Below, one piece after another: positions 11,987 to 21,558 of a DNA stretch of 21,558 nt (positions within the stretch are counted from its first letter, which is position 1; the number at the start of each line of letters is the position of its first letter). Under the pieces are notes generated by a model. That model worked only from the letters and a program-made list of their open reading frames with translations. It was not told the DNA's origin and did no database searches. Position numbers and translations under genes: made by a program. Location: the IMG/VR virus record IMGVR_UViG_3300006917_000176, positions 1-21,558 of that record; one strand, written 5' to 3'. Origin of the DNA: a virus.

Positions 11987-12469
11987 ATGGGCTGGAGCAA
12001 AAGGCAGTTTATCGAAGCTGCGTTTGAGGAAATCGGTCTGGCGTCGTACACATTCGACCTTCAGCCGCAGCAGCTTGAGAGCGCCATGCGTCGCCTCGAT
12101 GCAATGATGGCCGAATGGAACGCCAAGGGCATCCGTCTCGGCTACCCGCTGCCCAACAGCCCGCAGGACTCCAGCCTGAACGAACAGACGCTGGTGCCTG
12201 ATAGCGCCAACGAGGCGATCATCTGCAACCTGGCGGTGAAGCTCGCGCCAAGTTACGGCCGCGCTGTCATGGCCGAGACAAAGGCCACAGCCCGCCAAGG
12301 CTACAATACCCTGCTCTCCCGCGCCGCTGTGCCGCCAGAGCAACAATTTCCCGATACGCTGCCGGTCGGTGCAGGCAATAAGCCGTGGAACATCGACCAG
12401 CCCTTTGTACAACGTCCGGTTGATCCGGTGGACGCTGGCCCTGATGGCTGGCTGCAATACAACAACTGA
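11987..12469 (+). CDS. Head-to-tail adaptor, P22 gp4-like
   Basis: 160 aa (P22 gp4 is 166). Conserved features include LDAMMAEWNAKGIRLGY at about residues 37-53 (LEAMMAEWYQDGIIFGY in P22 as I recall it), NLAVKLAPSYGRAV at about 77-90, and LPVGAGN near the C-terminus (MPTGSGN in P22). gp4 binds under the portal after DNA packaging and forms the first neck ring; a peptidoglycan-degrading activity has been reported for P22 gp4. The N-terminus (WSKRQFIEAAFEEIGLA) fits the same fold. Confidence 0.9.
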   Translation: MGWSKRQFIEAAFEEIGLASYTFDLQPQQLESAMRRLDAMMAEWNAKGIRLGYPLPNSPQDSSLNEQTLVPDSANEAIICNLAVKLAPSYGRAVMAETKATARQGYNTLLSRAAVPPEQQFPDTLPVGAGNKPWNIDQPFVQRPVDPVDAGPDGWLQYNN

Positions 12470-13633: not shown

Positions 13634-15040
13634 ATGCCCCAAATACCGATTGTATCCGGCATCTACAGCGACAACGGCCCGGACCTGCGGACGAGCTACC
13701 CGGTCAACATGATGCCGGTGCCGAAGCAGTCCGGCGTGTCGAATGAGTTTCTGCGGCCGACCGATGGACTGGTGAGTTACGGCACAGGCCCAGGCATCGG
13801 GCGCGGCGGCATCAACTGGAATGACGAGCTGTACCGCGTCATGGGGACGAAGCTCGTCAAGATCGCGCAGGACGGCTCTGTTTCGATCCTGGGCGACGTT
13901 GGTGGGACAGGCTATGTCACGATGACCTACTCGTTCGACCGCCTTGCTATCGCGTCTGGTGGCAACCTGTTCTACTGGGACGGCGCAGCGCTCACACAGG
14001 TGACAGACCCGAACCTCGGCACCGTCCTCGATGTCATCTGGATCGACGGTTACTTTATGACAACGGATGGCACCACGCTGGTGGTGACGGACATTCTGAA
14101 CCCGTTAAACGTGCTGCCGTTCGCCTATGCGTCCAATGAACTTGACCCGGACCCGATCAAGGCCTTGCTCAAGATCCGTAACGAGGCCAACTCACTCAAC
14201 CGCTACACTATCGAGGTATTTGAGAACGTCGGCTCAACGCTACAGTTTCCGTTTCAGCCGGTGGACGGCGCGCAGATCCAGAAAGGCACCATCGGCACGC
14301 ATACCTGCTGCGTGTTCCTCGATGCCATCGCGTTTGTGGGCGGTGGCCGCAATGAAGCGCCGGGCATCTACGTCGCGCAGAACGCCAACACACAGAAAAT
14401 CAGCACGCAGGAAATCGACGAGATCCTGCTGGGCTACGGCGAGGCCACGTTGGCCGGCTGTCTGCTGGAGGCCCGCAATGACCGGGCGCACCGGCATTTG
14501 ATGTTCCACCTACCGGATCAGACGCTAGTCTTCGACGCTGCCGCCTCCGAGGTGCTGGGTCAGCCGATATGGTTCAAAATGGTGACGGCTGTGCAAGGGC
14601 TGGCCCGGTTCAAGGCCGAAAGCTACGTCTGGTGTTATGACCGTTGGAACGTCGAAGATCCTACCTCCACGACCATCGGCCGCACCGTGGACACCATCGG
14701 CACGCACTGGGGTGAGAAGGTGCGCTGGGAGTTCGGCACGATCATCATCTACAACAATTCGCTCGGCACCATCATCAATCAGATGGAGCTTGTGGCCCTG
14801 CCGGGTCGCGTGGCGCTGGGGCAAGATCCGTTCATTGCCACCAGTTACTCGCTCGACGGCCTGACGTGGAGTCAGGAGCAGAGCATCCGCGTCGGTAGCA
14901 TCGGCCAGACCAACAAGCGCTTGGTGTGGTTCCGTATGGGATCTATGCGAAACATGCGGATGCAGCGGTTCCGGGGCGATTCAGACGCGCATGTGGCCTT
15001 CCTGCGTCTTGAAGTCACTGCCGAAGGGCTGGCGTACTGA
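13634..15040 (+). CDS. Packaged-DNA stabilisation protein, P22 gp10-like
   Basis: 468 aa, against 472 for P22 gp10. Forms the second neck ring, below gp4, and gives the docking site for tailspikes and needle. The N-terminus (MPQIPIVSGIYSDNGPDLRT, SYPVNMMPVPKQSGVSNEFL) is typical of the family, as are GGNLFYWDGAALTQV at 109-123 and DVIWIDGYFMTTDG. Repeated beta-strand units through the body fit a beta-propeller-like part. Length, position after gp4 and before the needle, and sequence pattern agree. Its stop overlaps the next ATG by one base (TGATG). Confidence 0.92.
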   Translation: MPQIPIVSGIYSDNGPDLRTSYPVNMMPVPKQSGVSNEFLRPTDGLVSYGTGPGIGRGGINWNDELYRVMGTKLVKIAQDGSVSILGDVGGTGYVTMTYSFDRLAIASGGNLFYWDGAALTQVTDPNLGTVLDVIWIDGYFMTTDGTTLVVTDILNPLNVLPFAYASNELDPDPIKALLKIRNEANSLNRYTIEVFENVGSTLQFPFQPVDGAQIQKGTIGTHTCCVFLDAIAFVGGGRNEAPGIYVAQNANTQKISTQEIDEILLGYGEATLAGCLLEARNDRAHRHLMFHLPDQTLVFDAAASEVLGQPIWFKMVTAVQGLARFKAESYVWCYDRWNVEDPTSTTIGRTVDTIGTHWGEKVRWEFGTIIIYNNSLGTIINQMELVALPGRVALGQDPFIATSYSLDGLTWSQEQSIRVGSIGQTNKRLVWFRMGSMRNMRMQRFRGDSDAHVAFLRLEVTAEGLAY

Positions 15041-15987
15041 TGGCCGGCTCAAAGTACACGCCACCGTTGAAACTGACCCGCGAACAGCTTGCGGAGTTCC
15101 TGCCTGACCATCAGATGATCCGGGCGTTTGAGAACCTGTTTGCCACCATCGAGCCGTTAGCACCGACAACCATTGATGACCTGACGATCCTGGCAGGACA
15201 GGCCGATAACAAGGCTGTGCAGGCGCTCCAGTCGCTGGCCGAGATTGCACAGACGGCGGCCATCAATGCCGGCGCTGCTGAGGATCGGGCCACGCAGGCG
15301 CTGCAAGCCATCGCACAGTTGGCGCAGGATGCCGCGCTGTGCTGCGCTATTGCCGAGGCCAAGGGAACGCAGGCCATCGGGTCTATCGCGGCTCTGGAGC
15401 AAGACACGGCCGTCACGGCGGCTGTGCTGGAGGCCAAGGCCACGCAGGCGCTCGATGCCATATCGACGCTCACGCAAGCCGTGGAGCTGCTGGCGCTGGC
15501 ACCGCCTCCGCGTGAGTTCAAGCGGGCGCGGTATGGCTCGTTTTACGACACCACGACACAGACCGCCACTGCCATCAACACGGCCACGCTGATCACCTAC
15601 AACTCGACCCAGTTGAGCCAGGGCGTCTACGTTGACAGCGTGGTGACAAGCCGGGTCTATGTAGACACCGAGGGCATCTACAACTACCAGACCTCCATCC
15701 AGCTCGACTCGACGGTTGCGACGGATGAGGAGTTCTATTTGTGGTTCCGGCTCAACGGCGTGGACGTGACCGACTCCGCCAGCCGGGTGCGGATCAAGGG
15801 CAACAATGCCGAGATATTCGTTTCGCTGAACTTCTTTTTTGACCTCAAGGCCGGCGACTATGTGGAGTTGGTGTTTTCGGTCACGGACCTTGGCGTCCGA
15901 CTGGAAGCCACAGCCGCCGCCGCACCGCATCCCGGCATACCATCTATAATCCTAACAGTTGCCAACAATATCGAGGGCGTCCAATGA
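15040..15987 (+). CDS. Tail needle, P22/Sf6 gp26-like
   Basis: 315 aa in three parts. Residues 10-40 (LKLTREQLAEFLPDHQMIRA and following) form the N-terminal plug that likely sits in the gp10 ring. Residues 58-157 are four 25-residue alanine-rich repeats, long helical and probably trimeric. Residues 163-315 are beta-rich (RYGSFYDTTTQTATAINTAT, FYLWFRLNGVDVTDSASRV, KAGDYVELVFSV), like the TNF/C1q-type knob at the tip of the Sf6 needle. The needle closes the tail and is thought to pierce the outer membrane. P22 gp26 is 233 aa without this knob. An unusual CC pair is at residues 101-102. Confidence 0.7.
   Translation: MAGSKYTPPLKLTREQLAEFLPDHQMIRAFENLFATIEPLAPTTIDDLTILAGQADNKAVQALQSLAEIAQTAAINAGAAEDRATQALQAIAQLAQDAALCCAIAEAKGTQAIGSIAALEQDTAVTAAVLEAKATQALDAISTLTQAVELLALAPPPREFKRARYGSFYDTTTQTATAINTATLITYNSTQLSQGVYVDSVVTSRVYVDTEGIYNYQTSIQLDSTVATDEEFYLWFRLNGVDVTDSASRVRIKGNNAEIFVSLNFFFDLKAGDYVELVFSVTDLGVRLEATAAAAPHPGIPSIILTVANNIEGVQ
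15211..15510 (+). repeat. Four tandem 75-bp units encoding a 25-residue needle repeat
   Basis: Units start at needle residues 58, 83, 108 and 133. The shared pattern is K/R-A-[VT]-Q-A-[LI]-x-[SA]-[LI]-A, with a Q at unit position 14 and E near the end. At DNA level the phrase CACGCAGGCG(CT) recurs at unit starts, for example near 15291 and 15442. The last unit fades after about residue 150. 25 residues is two heptads plus one hendecad, a mild break of the usual heptad rule for coiled coils. Confidence 0.8.
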
Positions 15988-16316
15988 CCGTAACAGTGCA
16001 GGCCATCATTTCGAAAGAACTTGAGGCCGTTCAAACCACGCAATACACCAGTACGGCCGCCCGGACCATACTGGACAAGTTCACCGTGACCAACAACGAC
16101 GCGGTGGCCCGGACGTTTTCGGTCAACCTTGTGACGGTGGGCGGAACGGCTGGCAATGACAACCTGATCATCGACACCAAGACGGTCCAGCCCGACGAGA
16201 CGTACCTTTGCCCTGAAATGATCGGGCAGGTGCTGAACCCTGGGGACTTCATCAGCACCATCGCCAGCGCGGCCAACGGGCTGACAGCGCGGGTCAGTGC
16301 GCGGATCGTGACCTGA
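15984..16316 (+). CDS. Small beta-sandwich-like phage protein
   Basis: 110 aa, strand-rich with ordered alternation (YTSTAARTILDKFTVTNNDA, ARTFSVNLVTVGGTAGNDNL, IIDTKTVQPDETYLCPEMIG). Looks like an Ig-like or jelly-roll single domain. Not a family I can name with confidence, though similar small proteins sit beside needle or neck genes in related phages. Starts in the ATGA at the needle stop. Perhaps a decoration or tail-attached protein; no function shown. Confidence 0.65.
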   Translation: MTVTVQAIISKELEAVQTTQYTSTAARTILDKFTVTNNDAVARTFSVNLVTVGGTAGNDNLIIDTKTVQPDETYLCPEMIGQVLNPGDFISTIASAANGLTARVSARIVT

Positions 16317-16331: not shown

Positions 16332-16865
16332 GTGCAACACTGTACCATGCTGAGTACACCGAGCCGCCAGCGCCTCGCCCGTCTATCGGAGAATGTCGCC
16401 GTGGCCGTCACAGAAGGTGCCAGCACAGAGCAGCTTGTCGAGGTCTATTCAGACCCGTTCGTTGCACGCATCGCCCATGATCACCGCAAGCACTATCCCG
16501 TATTCAGCCCTGCGGCCACCTACCTGAGCGCATGGGTCGATGGTAGGTTTGTCGGTCTGTATCTTGCCATCACGGCATCCGAGATCGAGCTTGACGTGCA
16601 TGTCCTGCTCAAGAAGCAGGCCACCAGGCACTCGAGGGCGCTGGGCGCTGCGTTTCTGGCGTGGTGCTTCTCCAATCCAATGATCAGACGCCTGACCGGC
16701 TACATTCCCGACTGGATACCGGCAGCGCGCAATCATTCAGAAAAAATGGGTTTCAAATACGAGGGCGTGCGGCGTCACGCTCACATTAAAGACGGTCAAC
16801 CACGCGGCCTGTGGATCATGGGCCTGTTGCGTGAGGAATGGGAGGCTCAGTCATGGGCAGTGTAA
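16332..16865 (+). CDS. GNAT-like protein in the P22 gp14 position
   Basis: 177 aa from GTG at 16332 (GGGG at 16323-16326, 5 bases upstream); ATG at 16347 is possible but has no ribosome site. The fold is acetyltransferase-like: FVGLYLAI strand at 73-80, HVLLKKQATRHSRALGAAFL helix region at 90-109, and a motif-B-like part with AARNHSEKMGFKYEGVRRHA at 131-150. The acetyl-CoA loop (normally Q/R-x-x-G-x-G/A) is degenerate here, as KQATRHSRALG. P22 gene 14, in the same position, is a head-assembly gene. Either an active acetyltransferase or, given the loop, a structural descendant. Confidence 0.65.
   Translation: MQHCTMLSTPSRQRLARLSENVAVAVTEGASTEQLVEVYSDPFVARIAHDHRKHYPVFSPAATYLSAWVDGRFVGLYLAITASEIELDVHVLLKKQATRHSRALGAAFLAWCFSNPMIRRLTGYIPDWIPAARNHSEKMGFKYEGVRRHAHIKDGQPRGLWIMGLLREEWEAQSWAV
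16840..16845 (+). promoter_or_regulatory. Ribosome site deciding the gp7-like start
   Basis: GGGAGG at 16840-16845 lies 7 bases before ATG 16853, so this start is preferred over an in-frame ATG at 16838 that lacks a ribosome site. The site lies inside the end of the GNAT-like gene. Confidence 0.7.
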
Positions 16866-17587
16866 GCGACGCATTCAGTGGCATCGGTAATTTTATCGGT
16901 GACACCATTGGCGGCATCACCGGGGCATCGCAAGCCGGCGAAGCAGCAGAAAAGGCCGGTAATGTTCAAGCGGCAGCGGCTCAAAAAGGCATAGAAGAAC
17001 AGCGCCGCCAGTTCGACCGAATGATGGAGGTGTTGGCCCCGTTTCAAGAAGCGGGCGTCGGCGCGTTGGGGCGCTTGCAACCATACGAGCAGGCCGGTGT
17101 CGGTGCGTTGGAATCACAGCAAGCGCTGGCTGGCCTGCGAGGCCCTGAAGCGCAGCGGGCGGCGATTGACCAGTTGGCCGCCAGCCCCGAATTCCAGGCG
17201 CAAGTCGAACAAGGGGAACGCGCCCTGCTCCAACGCGCTGCTGCCACTGGTGGCCTGCGTGGTGGCAATGTTCAAGAAGCGCTGGCACAGTTCCGACCTC
17301 AAATGCTTTCTGATTTGATCAAAGAGCAATACGGTCGTCTCGGCGGCTTCACTCAGTTGGGATCGCAGACGGCTACCAACATTGCACAACTGGGGCAAGC
17401 ATCGGCGGCCCGTCAAGGGGTTGGAGCGCTGGAGTCTGGCGCGGCAATCGCTGGCCTACTTGGCGAACAAGGCGCGGCGCGAGCCGGTGGCATACTCGGT
17501 CAGGGCGGCGTGGTTGGTCAGACCTTCGGTGACATTCTGTCGCTGGCGACCGCAGGCACAAAAGCATATAGCGCATTTGGGGGTTGA
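16853..17587 (+). CDS. DNA ejection protein, P22 gp7-like
   Basis: 244 aa (P22 gp7 is 229). Packed inside the capsid and released before DNA to help build the conduit through the cell envelope. The N-terminus is Gly/Ile-rich (SDAFSGIGNFIGDTIGGITG) and may insert in membrane. A central region has QRRQFDRMMEVLAPFQEAGV and repeats of a GVGAL motif at 68-72, 82-86 and 189-193. The end is Gly/Ala-rich (FGDILSLATAGTKAYSAFGG). Overlaps the GNAT-like gene by 13 bases. First of three ejection genes in P22 order. Confidence 0.85.
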   Translation: MGSVSDAFSGIGNFIGDTIGGITGASQAGEAAEKAGNVQAAAAQKGIEEQRRQFDRMMEVLAPFQEAGVGALGRLQPYEQAGVGALESQQALAGLRGPEAQRAAIDQLAASPEFQAQVEQGERALLQRAAATGGLRGGNVQEALAQFRPQMLSDLIKEQYGRLGGFTQLGSQTATNIAQLGQASAARQGVGALESGAAIAGLLGEQGAARAGGILGQGGVVGQTFGDILSLATAGTKAYSAFGG

Positions 17588-21048: not shown

Positions 21049-21558
21049 ATGAGCGCACTGTCGATCAACCCTCCATTCCCGGTGTTCCCCGATCTTGACG
21101 GCCAGCCGTTGGAGGATGGGTATATCTGGATCGGCGTGGCCGGCCTCAATCCTATCACTAACCCGATCGTGGTTTACTGGGATGCAGCTCTGACTATCCC
21201 AGCAGCGCTTCCGGTCCGCACCATTGGCGGATTCCCTGCTCGCGCTGGCTCGCCTGCGCGGCTGTACGCTGGTTCGGACTACTCGATTCAGGTGCAGAAC
21301 AAGAACGGCAGCGTGACCTATAGTGCTCCTAATGCGACTGAATTGCTGTCATCGGAATTGGTGACGTTCATTCAATCAGGCACAGGCGCTGTTGCCACAA
21401 CCGTTCAAGCCAAATTGCAAGAATCAGCAAACGCTGTTACAGACTTTGGTGCAGATAATACTGGGACATCGAATGCCACAACGGCGCTGTTCAATTTCTT
21501 CACGCATTGTATCAACACCGGCACGCCAGGCCACATTCCTGCGGGCACCTATTTGGTG
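21049..21558 (+). CDS. Tailspike, P22-type head-binding domain; 3' end outside window
   Basis: First 170 codons only. Residues 6-100 match the P22 gp9 head-binding domain in layout: NPPFPVFPDLDGQPLEDGYI, an IWIG strand, then YWDAALTIPAALPVRT and RLYAGSDYSIQVQNKNGS. This domain attaches to the gp4/gp10 neck. Residues 104-130 are a short linker, and VTDFGADNTGTSNATTALFN (131-150) is the usual beginning of a right-handed parallel beta-helix of pectate-lyase type. The rest decides receptor binding and hydrolysis and is not present, so target polysaccharide is unknown. AGGAG at 21036-21040, 8 bases upstream, supports the start. Confidence 0.88.
   Translation, partial: MSALSINPPFPVFPDLDGQPLEDGYIWIGVAGLNPITNPIVVYWDAALTIPAALPVRTIGGFPARAGSPARLYAGSDYSIQVQNKNGSVTYSAPNATELLSSELVTFIQSGTGAVATTVQAKLQESANAVTDFGADNTGTSNATTALFNFFTHCINTGTPGHIPAGTYLV

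Follow-up and report, generated by a model that had tools for sequence, protein, structure and literature searches.

The gene at positions 15040 to 15987 of the viral DNA analyzed here (21,558 nucleotides, IMG/VR record IMGVR_UViG_3300006917_000176, hereafter the window) probably encodes the central tail needle of a P22-like podovirus, with a rod of 25-residue coiled-coil modules that carries a knob. Whole modules are gained and lost among its relatives. The genes and parts discussed below are as follows.

11987–12469, plus strand: gene for a P22 gp4-like tail accessory factor (PF11650).
13634–15040, plus strand: gene for a P22 gp10-like hub protein (PF11134, E 1.4e-33; phrog_578).
15040–15987, plus strand: tail-needle-like gene, 315 amino acids, with N-terminal domain, rod of 25-residue units and C1q/TNF-like knob (open reading frame, gene order, structure model).
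15040–15174, plus strand: N-terminal domain, residues 1–45, kept across relatives, low model confidence; presumed hub-binding plug.
15211–15285, plus strand: unit 1, 25 residues, residues 58–82 (lag analysis).
15286–15360, plus strand: unit 2, 25 residues, residues 83–107 (lag analysis).
15361–15435, plus strand: unit 3, 25 residues, residues 108–132 (lag analysis); the chimeric unit of relatives begins like this one.
15436–15510, plus strand: unit 4, 25 residues, residues 133–157; its final 9–10 residues turn into linker.
15523–15984, plus strand: C-terminal knob, residues 162–315, predicted C1q/TNF-like jelly roll (structure model and structure matches).
15984–16316, plus strand: 110-residue gene directly after the needle-like gene (open reading frame; position conserved in relatives).
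16838–17587, plus strand: gene for a P22 gp7-like ejection protein (phrog_598; Pfam P22_gp7 below its cut-off).
21049–21558, plus strand: tailspike-like gene, start only, running past the window end (PHROGs tail spike/fiber matches).

Residue 58 of the reading frame that opens at 15040 lies at position 15211, and 15211–15510 is exactly 4 × 25 codons, with units starting at residues 58, 83, 108, and 133. The unit starts follow the pattern [KR]x[VT]QA[LI]xx[LI][AS]x[IL]xQ. Between residues 41 and 157, identity at a lag of 25 is 36/92 (BLOSUM sum 152). None of 3000 plain shuffles reached this score over lags 5–60 (best value at most 28), and none of 3000 shuffles that preserved the hydrophobic pattern did so over the same lags (maximum at most 29). 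The best lag is 25, and heptad lags in the rod were not above shuffles. The four exact tandem units of the original prediction, and their period outside the heptad multiples, were thus recovered, with a reservation for the last unit: its repeat is clear by eye over about 16 residues only, and residues from about 148 to 157 already form the linker to the knob. The predicted helix ends within this unit, at residue 152. Any two units share 8–12 of 25 residues, yet just 35–42 of 75 bases, so that the repeat appears to be old and visible mainly at the protein level; it seems to be held by protein constraint. Between the window and the related locus L092 (L-numbers denote loci of relatives carrying the needle-like gene), 21 codons are synonymous and 9 changed among 128 rod codons. 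L090 matches the window identically over 7024 bases and hence is not an independent case.

Relatives were collected from viral contigs, almost all of them metagenome assemblies, which were scanned five times. Four scans contributed their best 80 matches each and the fifth 11, so the counts describe relatives of the queries rather than the whole group. The family profile fitted 272 loci, of which 264 are complete and 8, being partial, were left out; loci on contigs fetched twice were merged only if their proteins were identical. This gave 180 distinct proteins, and 176 were measured after leaving out four without an anchor. The rod, taken as the distance between two fixed anchors, is 79 residues long in 61 of these best-match proteins, 104 in 69, 129 in 5, and 154 in 1. 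These lengths form an exact ladder of two, three, four, and five units, held by 136 of the 176; the window protein has four units. The predicted variation in copy number across relatives is therefore real. Of the 67 distinct proteins from the first best-80 scan, 52 had their best lag at 25. Most of the 40 off-ladder rods in the best-match set (33) lie within three residues of a rung and seven do not; rods of 77 residues show no clear units by eye.

Other lengths and forms were also seen. The rods of loci L252, L255, L256, and L260 measure 127 residues, two below the four-unit length, against 104 in their near relatives L249 and L254; the step is 23 residues rather than 25. Next to the knob, L036–L038 and L049 contain another repeat, with a period of 19 residues (best lag-57 match in L036, 51/57 nucleotides). 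L036 exceeds L049 by one copy of it, which is a second way of lengthening. L033 (5001–5792) encodes a three-unit needle whose knob is 25 residues short of that of its relatives, either a broken knob or an assembly error. When 84,980 species genomes were scanned twice with patterns, no relative bearing the needle N-terminal domain was found; the first scan gave no locus and the second gave four that match the knob. One of these four is L086, in which the match begins at residue 141 and the contig has masked stretches. Of 50,697 phage records, 13 matched the needle-like protein at E 0.01, and no match extended over 80% of its length.

The steps between rungs can be followed in close relatives. 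We compared 36 disjoint pairs, not all of them independent events, with at least 88% identity in the N-terminal domain and knob and with different rods. Thirty-one pairs differ by exactly 25 residues; the other five differ by 23 (three pairs), 19 (one), and 1 (one). For the 26 pairs in which DNA identity was computed, it is 93.0% over shared DNA for L029/L144 (98.9% identical in N-terminal domain and knob), 93.9% for L261/L246, 96.0% for L260/L254, which differ by 23 residues, and 73–91% for the remaining 23. Judged from the three pairs at 93–96%, unit number apparently can change near the species level. Both directions of change have left traces. In L001 and L091, which are three-unit relatives of the window, one unit is a chimera with a unit-3-like beginning and a unit-4-like continuation, which most simply suggests a deletion via recombination where unit starts resemble each other. 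The five units of L261 include two adjacent copies that are identical at 72 of 75 bases, and its close relative L246 has four units; L261 thus carries a recent tandem duplication of 75 nucleotides. A quick tree of the N-terminal domain and knob, with 169 labeled rows and each rod rounded to its nearest unit class, requires no fewer than 35 switches of class, and the well-supported branches alone force eight for two units, nine for three, and four for four. Knob or rod swaps may account for part of these changes.

It is possible that the differences in unit number are neutral, with recombination between repeats yielding only multiples of 25 and length itself unselected. Unequal recombination or slippage makes whole units without selection, and two- and three-unit forms occur together in metagenome sample 3300037485 (L100 with 79 residues, L110 with 104). 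However, at the low base identity between window units the repeat is a poor substrate for frequent slippage, and yet most best-match rods stand on the exact ladder. Unit classes also cluster on the tree, with 35 changes against 63.7 in shuffled labels, although near-copies alone cause clustering.

The reading as a tail needle draws first on gene order. Homologs of the P22 coat (PF11651, upstream of the gp10-like gene), gp4 (PF11650), gp10 (PF11134), and gp7 (phrog_598) proteins occur in that order in the window, which is a P22-like podovirus virion module. The stop codon of the gp10-like gene and the start codon of the needle-like gene overlap by one base (TGATG). The needle genes of P22 and Sf6 likewise lie directly behind gp10, and Sf6 has the same one-base overlap. 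The window departs from P22 in that three open reading frames separate gp4 from gp10 and two separate the needle from gp7. Downstream of the needle-like gene, the window carries the 110-residue gene, a 177-residue gene (at 16332), the gp7-like gene, a phrog_917 gene, one more gene, and the tailspike-like gene. Among distinct relatives of the best-match set with at least 300 nucleotides of upstream sequence, 173 of 174 have a gp10-like gene that ends no more than 60 nucleotides from the needle start. The lone exception is L004, in which the N-terminal domain is a different one and the gp10-like match is weaker (24% identity) and stops 92 nucleotides upstream. In the same set, the 110-residue gene follows in 167/167 distinct relatives with room downstream and the gp7-like gene lies downstream in 135/137; the 177-residue gene is present in just 13/151. 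A promoter and terminator scan of 14900–16100 found none.

Two further observations concern these neighbors. In L065 (106–2301) the gp10-like and needle genes form one open frame of 731 amino acids, a fusion or an assembly error; the few bases that its close relative L064 has before the needle start are missing, which gives the single frame. A query with the tailspike N-terminal domain matched 46 of the 50 relatives' records searched. The domain sits in a short frame of about 160–185 residues in several records and in frames of 450–870 residues in others, and some records give two matches. By eye, unit number bears no relation to the tailspike, whose frames span about 160–867 residues in both two- and three-unit records.

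The second line of support is architecture. AlphaFold2, run on a single chain of the window protein with an alignment of 37 sequences, gave five models with mean pLDDT from 48.3 to 72.7, the best being 72.7. The model has helices at residues 14–20 and 24–36, a single continuous helix at 46–152, and strands at 164–309. The block mean confidence is 39–56 in residues 1–80 and 65–81 in residues 81–150. The structure matches place the predicted knob among the jelly rolls of the C1q/TNF superfamily. In Foldseek it matches the knob of the phi812 central spike with E 1e-7. VIA gives Z 15.8 over 136 residues, with spore-surface BclA-like and BxpB/ExsF-like proteins as top matches, Z 14.7 to the phi812 central spike (9eul), and 14.2 to cyanophage A4. 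The likeness to phi812, to A4 (9k09), and to cyanophage A-1(L) (8ke9) is that of a shared knob fold; the structure-search matches all fall on the knob and do not cover the rod. Sequence searches added little: solved structures gave nothing significant (single matches, E 0.94 and 2.3), Pfam at E 0.1 gave no family, and PHROGs gave just two weak matches, both in the knob.

P22 gp26 (Lederbergvirus) is described in excerpts of PMC3741392 as an elongated helical shaft running from a hub-side N-terminus to a distal tip, which is also the predicted plan of the window protein; the tip of gp26 is different. The Sf6 and HS1 needles combine a helical shaft with a TNF-like knob, as the window protein is predicted to do (excerpts of PMC3741392). 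The shafts themselves are not alike. By residue identity, the best lags are 21, 14, 42, and 35 in P22 gp26, all heptad multiples, and 14, 28, and 42 in Sf6, where lag 25 scores only 0.027, compared with 25 in the window; P22 likewise shows little at lag 25. In Sf6 and HS1 the shaft length varies by heptads (11 versus 16) according to the same excerpts (PMC3741392), and in the window group by 25-residue units. Alignment of the window family with P22 and Sf6 gp26 by hhalign found no similarity (probability 0.1–1.9%) with profiles that are shallow (Neff 2.1–2.7 versus 1.0–1.7). Since no sequence homology was found and the shaft is not built of heptads, we do not file the protein with the gp26 family, and regard it as one that probably works like a gp26-type needle. 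The name tail needle, given in the original prediction, is accordingly supported by gene order and architecture, and not by sequence homology to gp26.

Related arrangements occur elsewhere. In MW202867, an uncultured phage from Manatee Spring, a gp10-like gene is followed by a needle-like gene for a protein of 390 amino acids with a similar N-terminal domain and knob and other sequence in place of the 25-residue rod. In L096 (3345–3764) and L097 (314–907), behind a seemingly gp10-like gene, a family-like N-terminal domain is joined to other distal sequence that replaces the knob. This exchange of tips parallels the difference in tip between P22 and Sf6.

The protein could alternatively be another hub-attached fiber or adhesin at the gp26 position, its rod and knob serving receptor binding only, with no plugging of the tail. 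The lack of detectable gp26 homology would fit such a protein, as would the distal sequences of L096 and L097. Many other predicted proteins of phages also have knobs of this kind, and some of them are annotated as tail fiber or collagen-like. The place of the gene argues against this: it is the place of the needle gene in P22 and Sf6, kept in all but one of the relatives scored. The combination of a helical shaft and a TNF-like knob is moreover the architecture of the Sf6 needle, as excerpts of PMC3741392 present it. We consider the fiber or adhesin unlikely.

For the tail needle, the nature of the rod itself is the next point. The long helical shaft, expected of such a needle, is predicted as one continuous helix. 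A two-unit relative, L144, was modeled with an unbroken helix at residues 42–102 (a weak model, mean pLDDT 58.1), 46 residues shorter than that of the window, where two units would make 50. It is very unlikely that the units instead form helical hairpins, as in an alpha-solenoid or bundle, with no rod: a unit of this size could in principle make short hairpins, and the models are of single chains with part of the rod at low confidence, but both show one uninterrupted helix. In addition, proline is rare in first and internal units (listed once, 3/48) and glycine reaches at most about one third at any position (30/92). Still less credible is misassembly at repeats as the source of the length differences: the relatives are nearly all metagenome assemblies, and tandem copies that are almost identical, like those of L261, can be assembled wrongly, but most units have diverged too far to collapse (median best lag-75 identity 38.5/75 in 176 genes) and 136 of the 176 distinct proteins stand on the ladder.

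Across the 136 proteins on the ladder, hydrophobic residues fall at unit positions 4, 7/8, 11, 14/15, 18, 22, and 25, some of them variable, in a numbering that begins two residues before that of 58/83/108/133. Seven core layers per 25 residues make a 7+7+11 pattern. The hendecad in every unit that had been proposed is a candidate register consistent with these conserved positions. The hydrophobic period of the rods peaks at 3.54–3.56, close to 25/7 = 3.57. Applied to P22 and Sf6, whose shafts are heptad coiled coils, this measure yields 3.21 and 3.41, respectively, and does not recover 3.5. It is for this reason a weak witness to the register.

The proposed needle would be organized as follows. 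By analogy with P22 gp26 (excerpts of PMC3741392), the N-terminal 45 residues or so would occupy the gp10-like hub and thereby close the tail as a plug. The rod of coiled-coil modules, each 7+7+11 with seven core layers, would bear the C1q/TNF-like knob. This knob fold is normally trimeric. P22-type needles are trimeric as well in the excerpts of PMC3741392. On both grounds the rod would most likely be a parallel trimer. Units would be lost through recombination between neighbors and gained through tandem duplication of 75 nucleotides. As 25 residues are about seven helical turns, gain or loss of a unit would keep the core face in phase, and the needle could lengthen or shorten with plug and knob undisturbed. 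The rise of an alpha-helix is about 1.5 Å per residue, so that each unit would add about 37 Å. Variation in needle length is already known, and the 25-residue module is the new part. Bhardwaj et al. reportedly treated needle length and stability in 2009. In searches of the open-licence PMC literature, we found no report of 25-residue modules in tail needles. Published needle shafts have 11–16 heptads and are 220–320 Å long, and the role of needle length and tip in P22-like phages is given as an open question (both from excerpts of PMC3741392).

More doubtful is the idea that the rod is an evolvable ruler whose steps of about 37 Å fit the needle to the thickness of the layer on the host surface through which the knob must reach. 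If this were true, one P22-like group of uncultured viruses would repeatedly switch needle length module by module. Close pairs that stand one exact module apart with N-terminal domain and knob nearly unchanged, such as L029 and L144, would make the question of length and tip directly testable. A step of 25 residues that keeps phase would also be a rule for building coiled-coil rods that differs from heptads.
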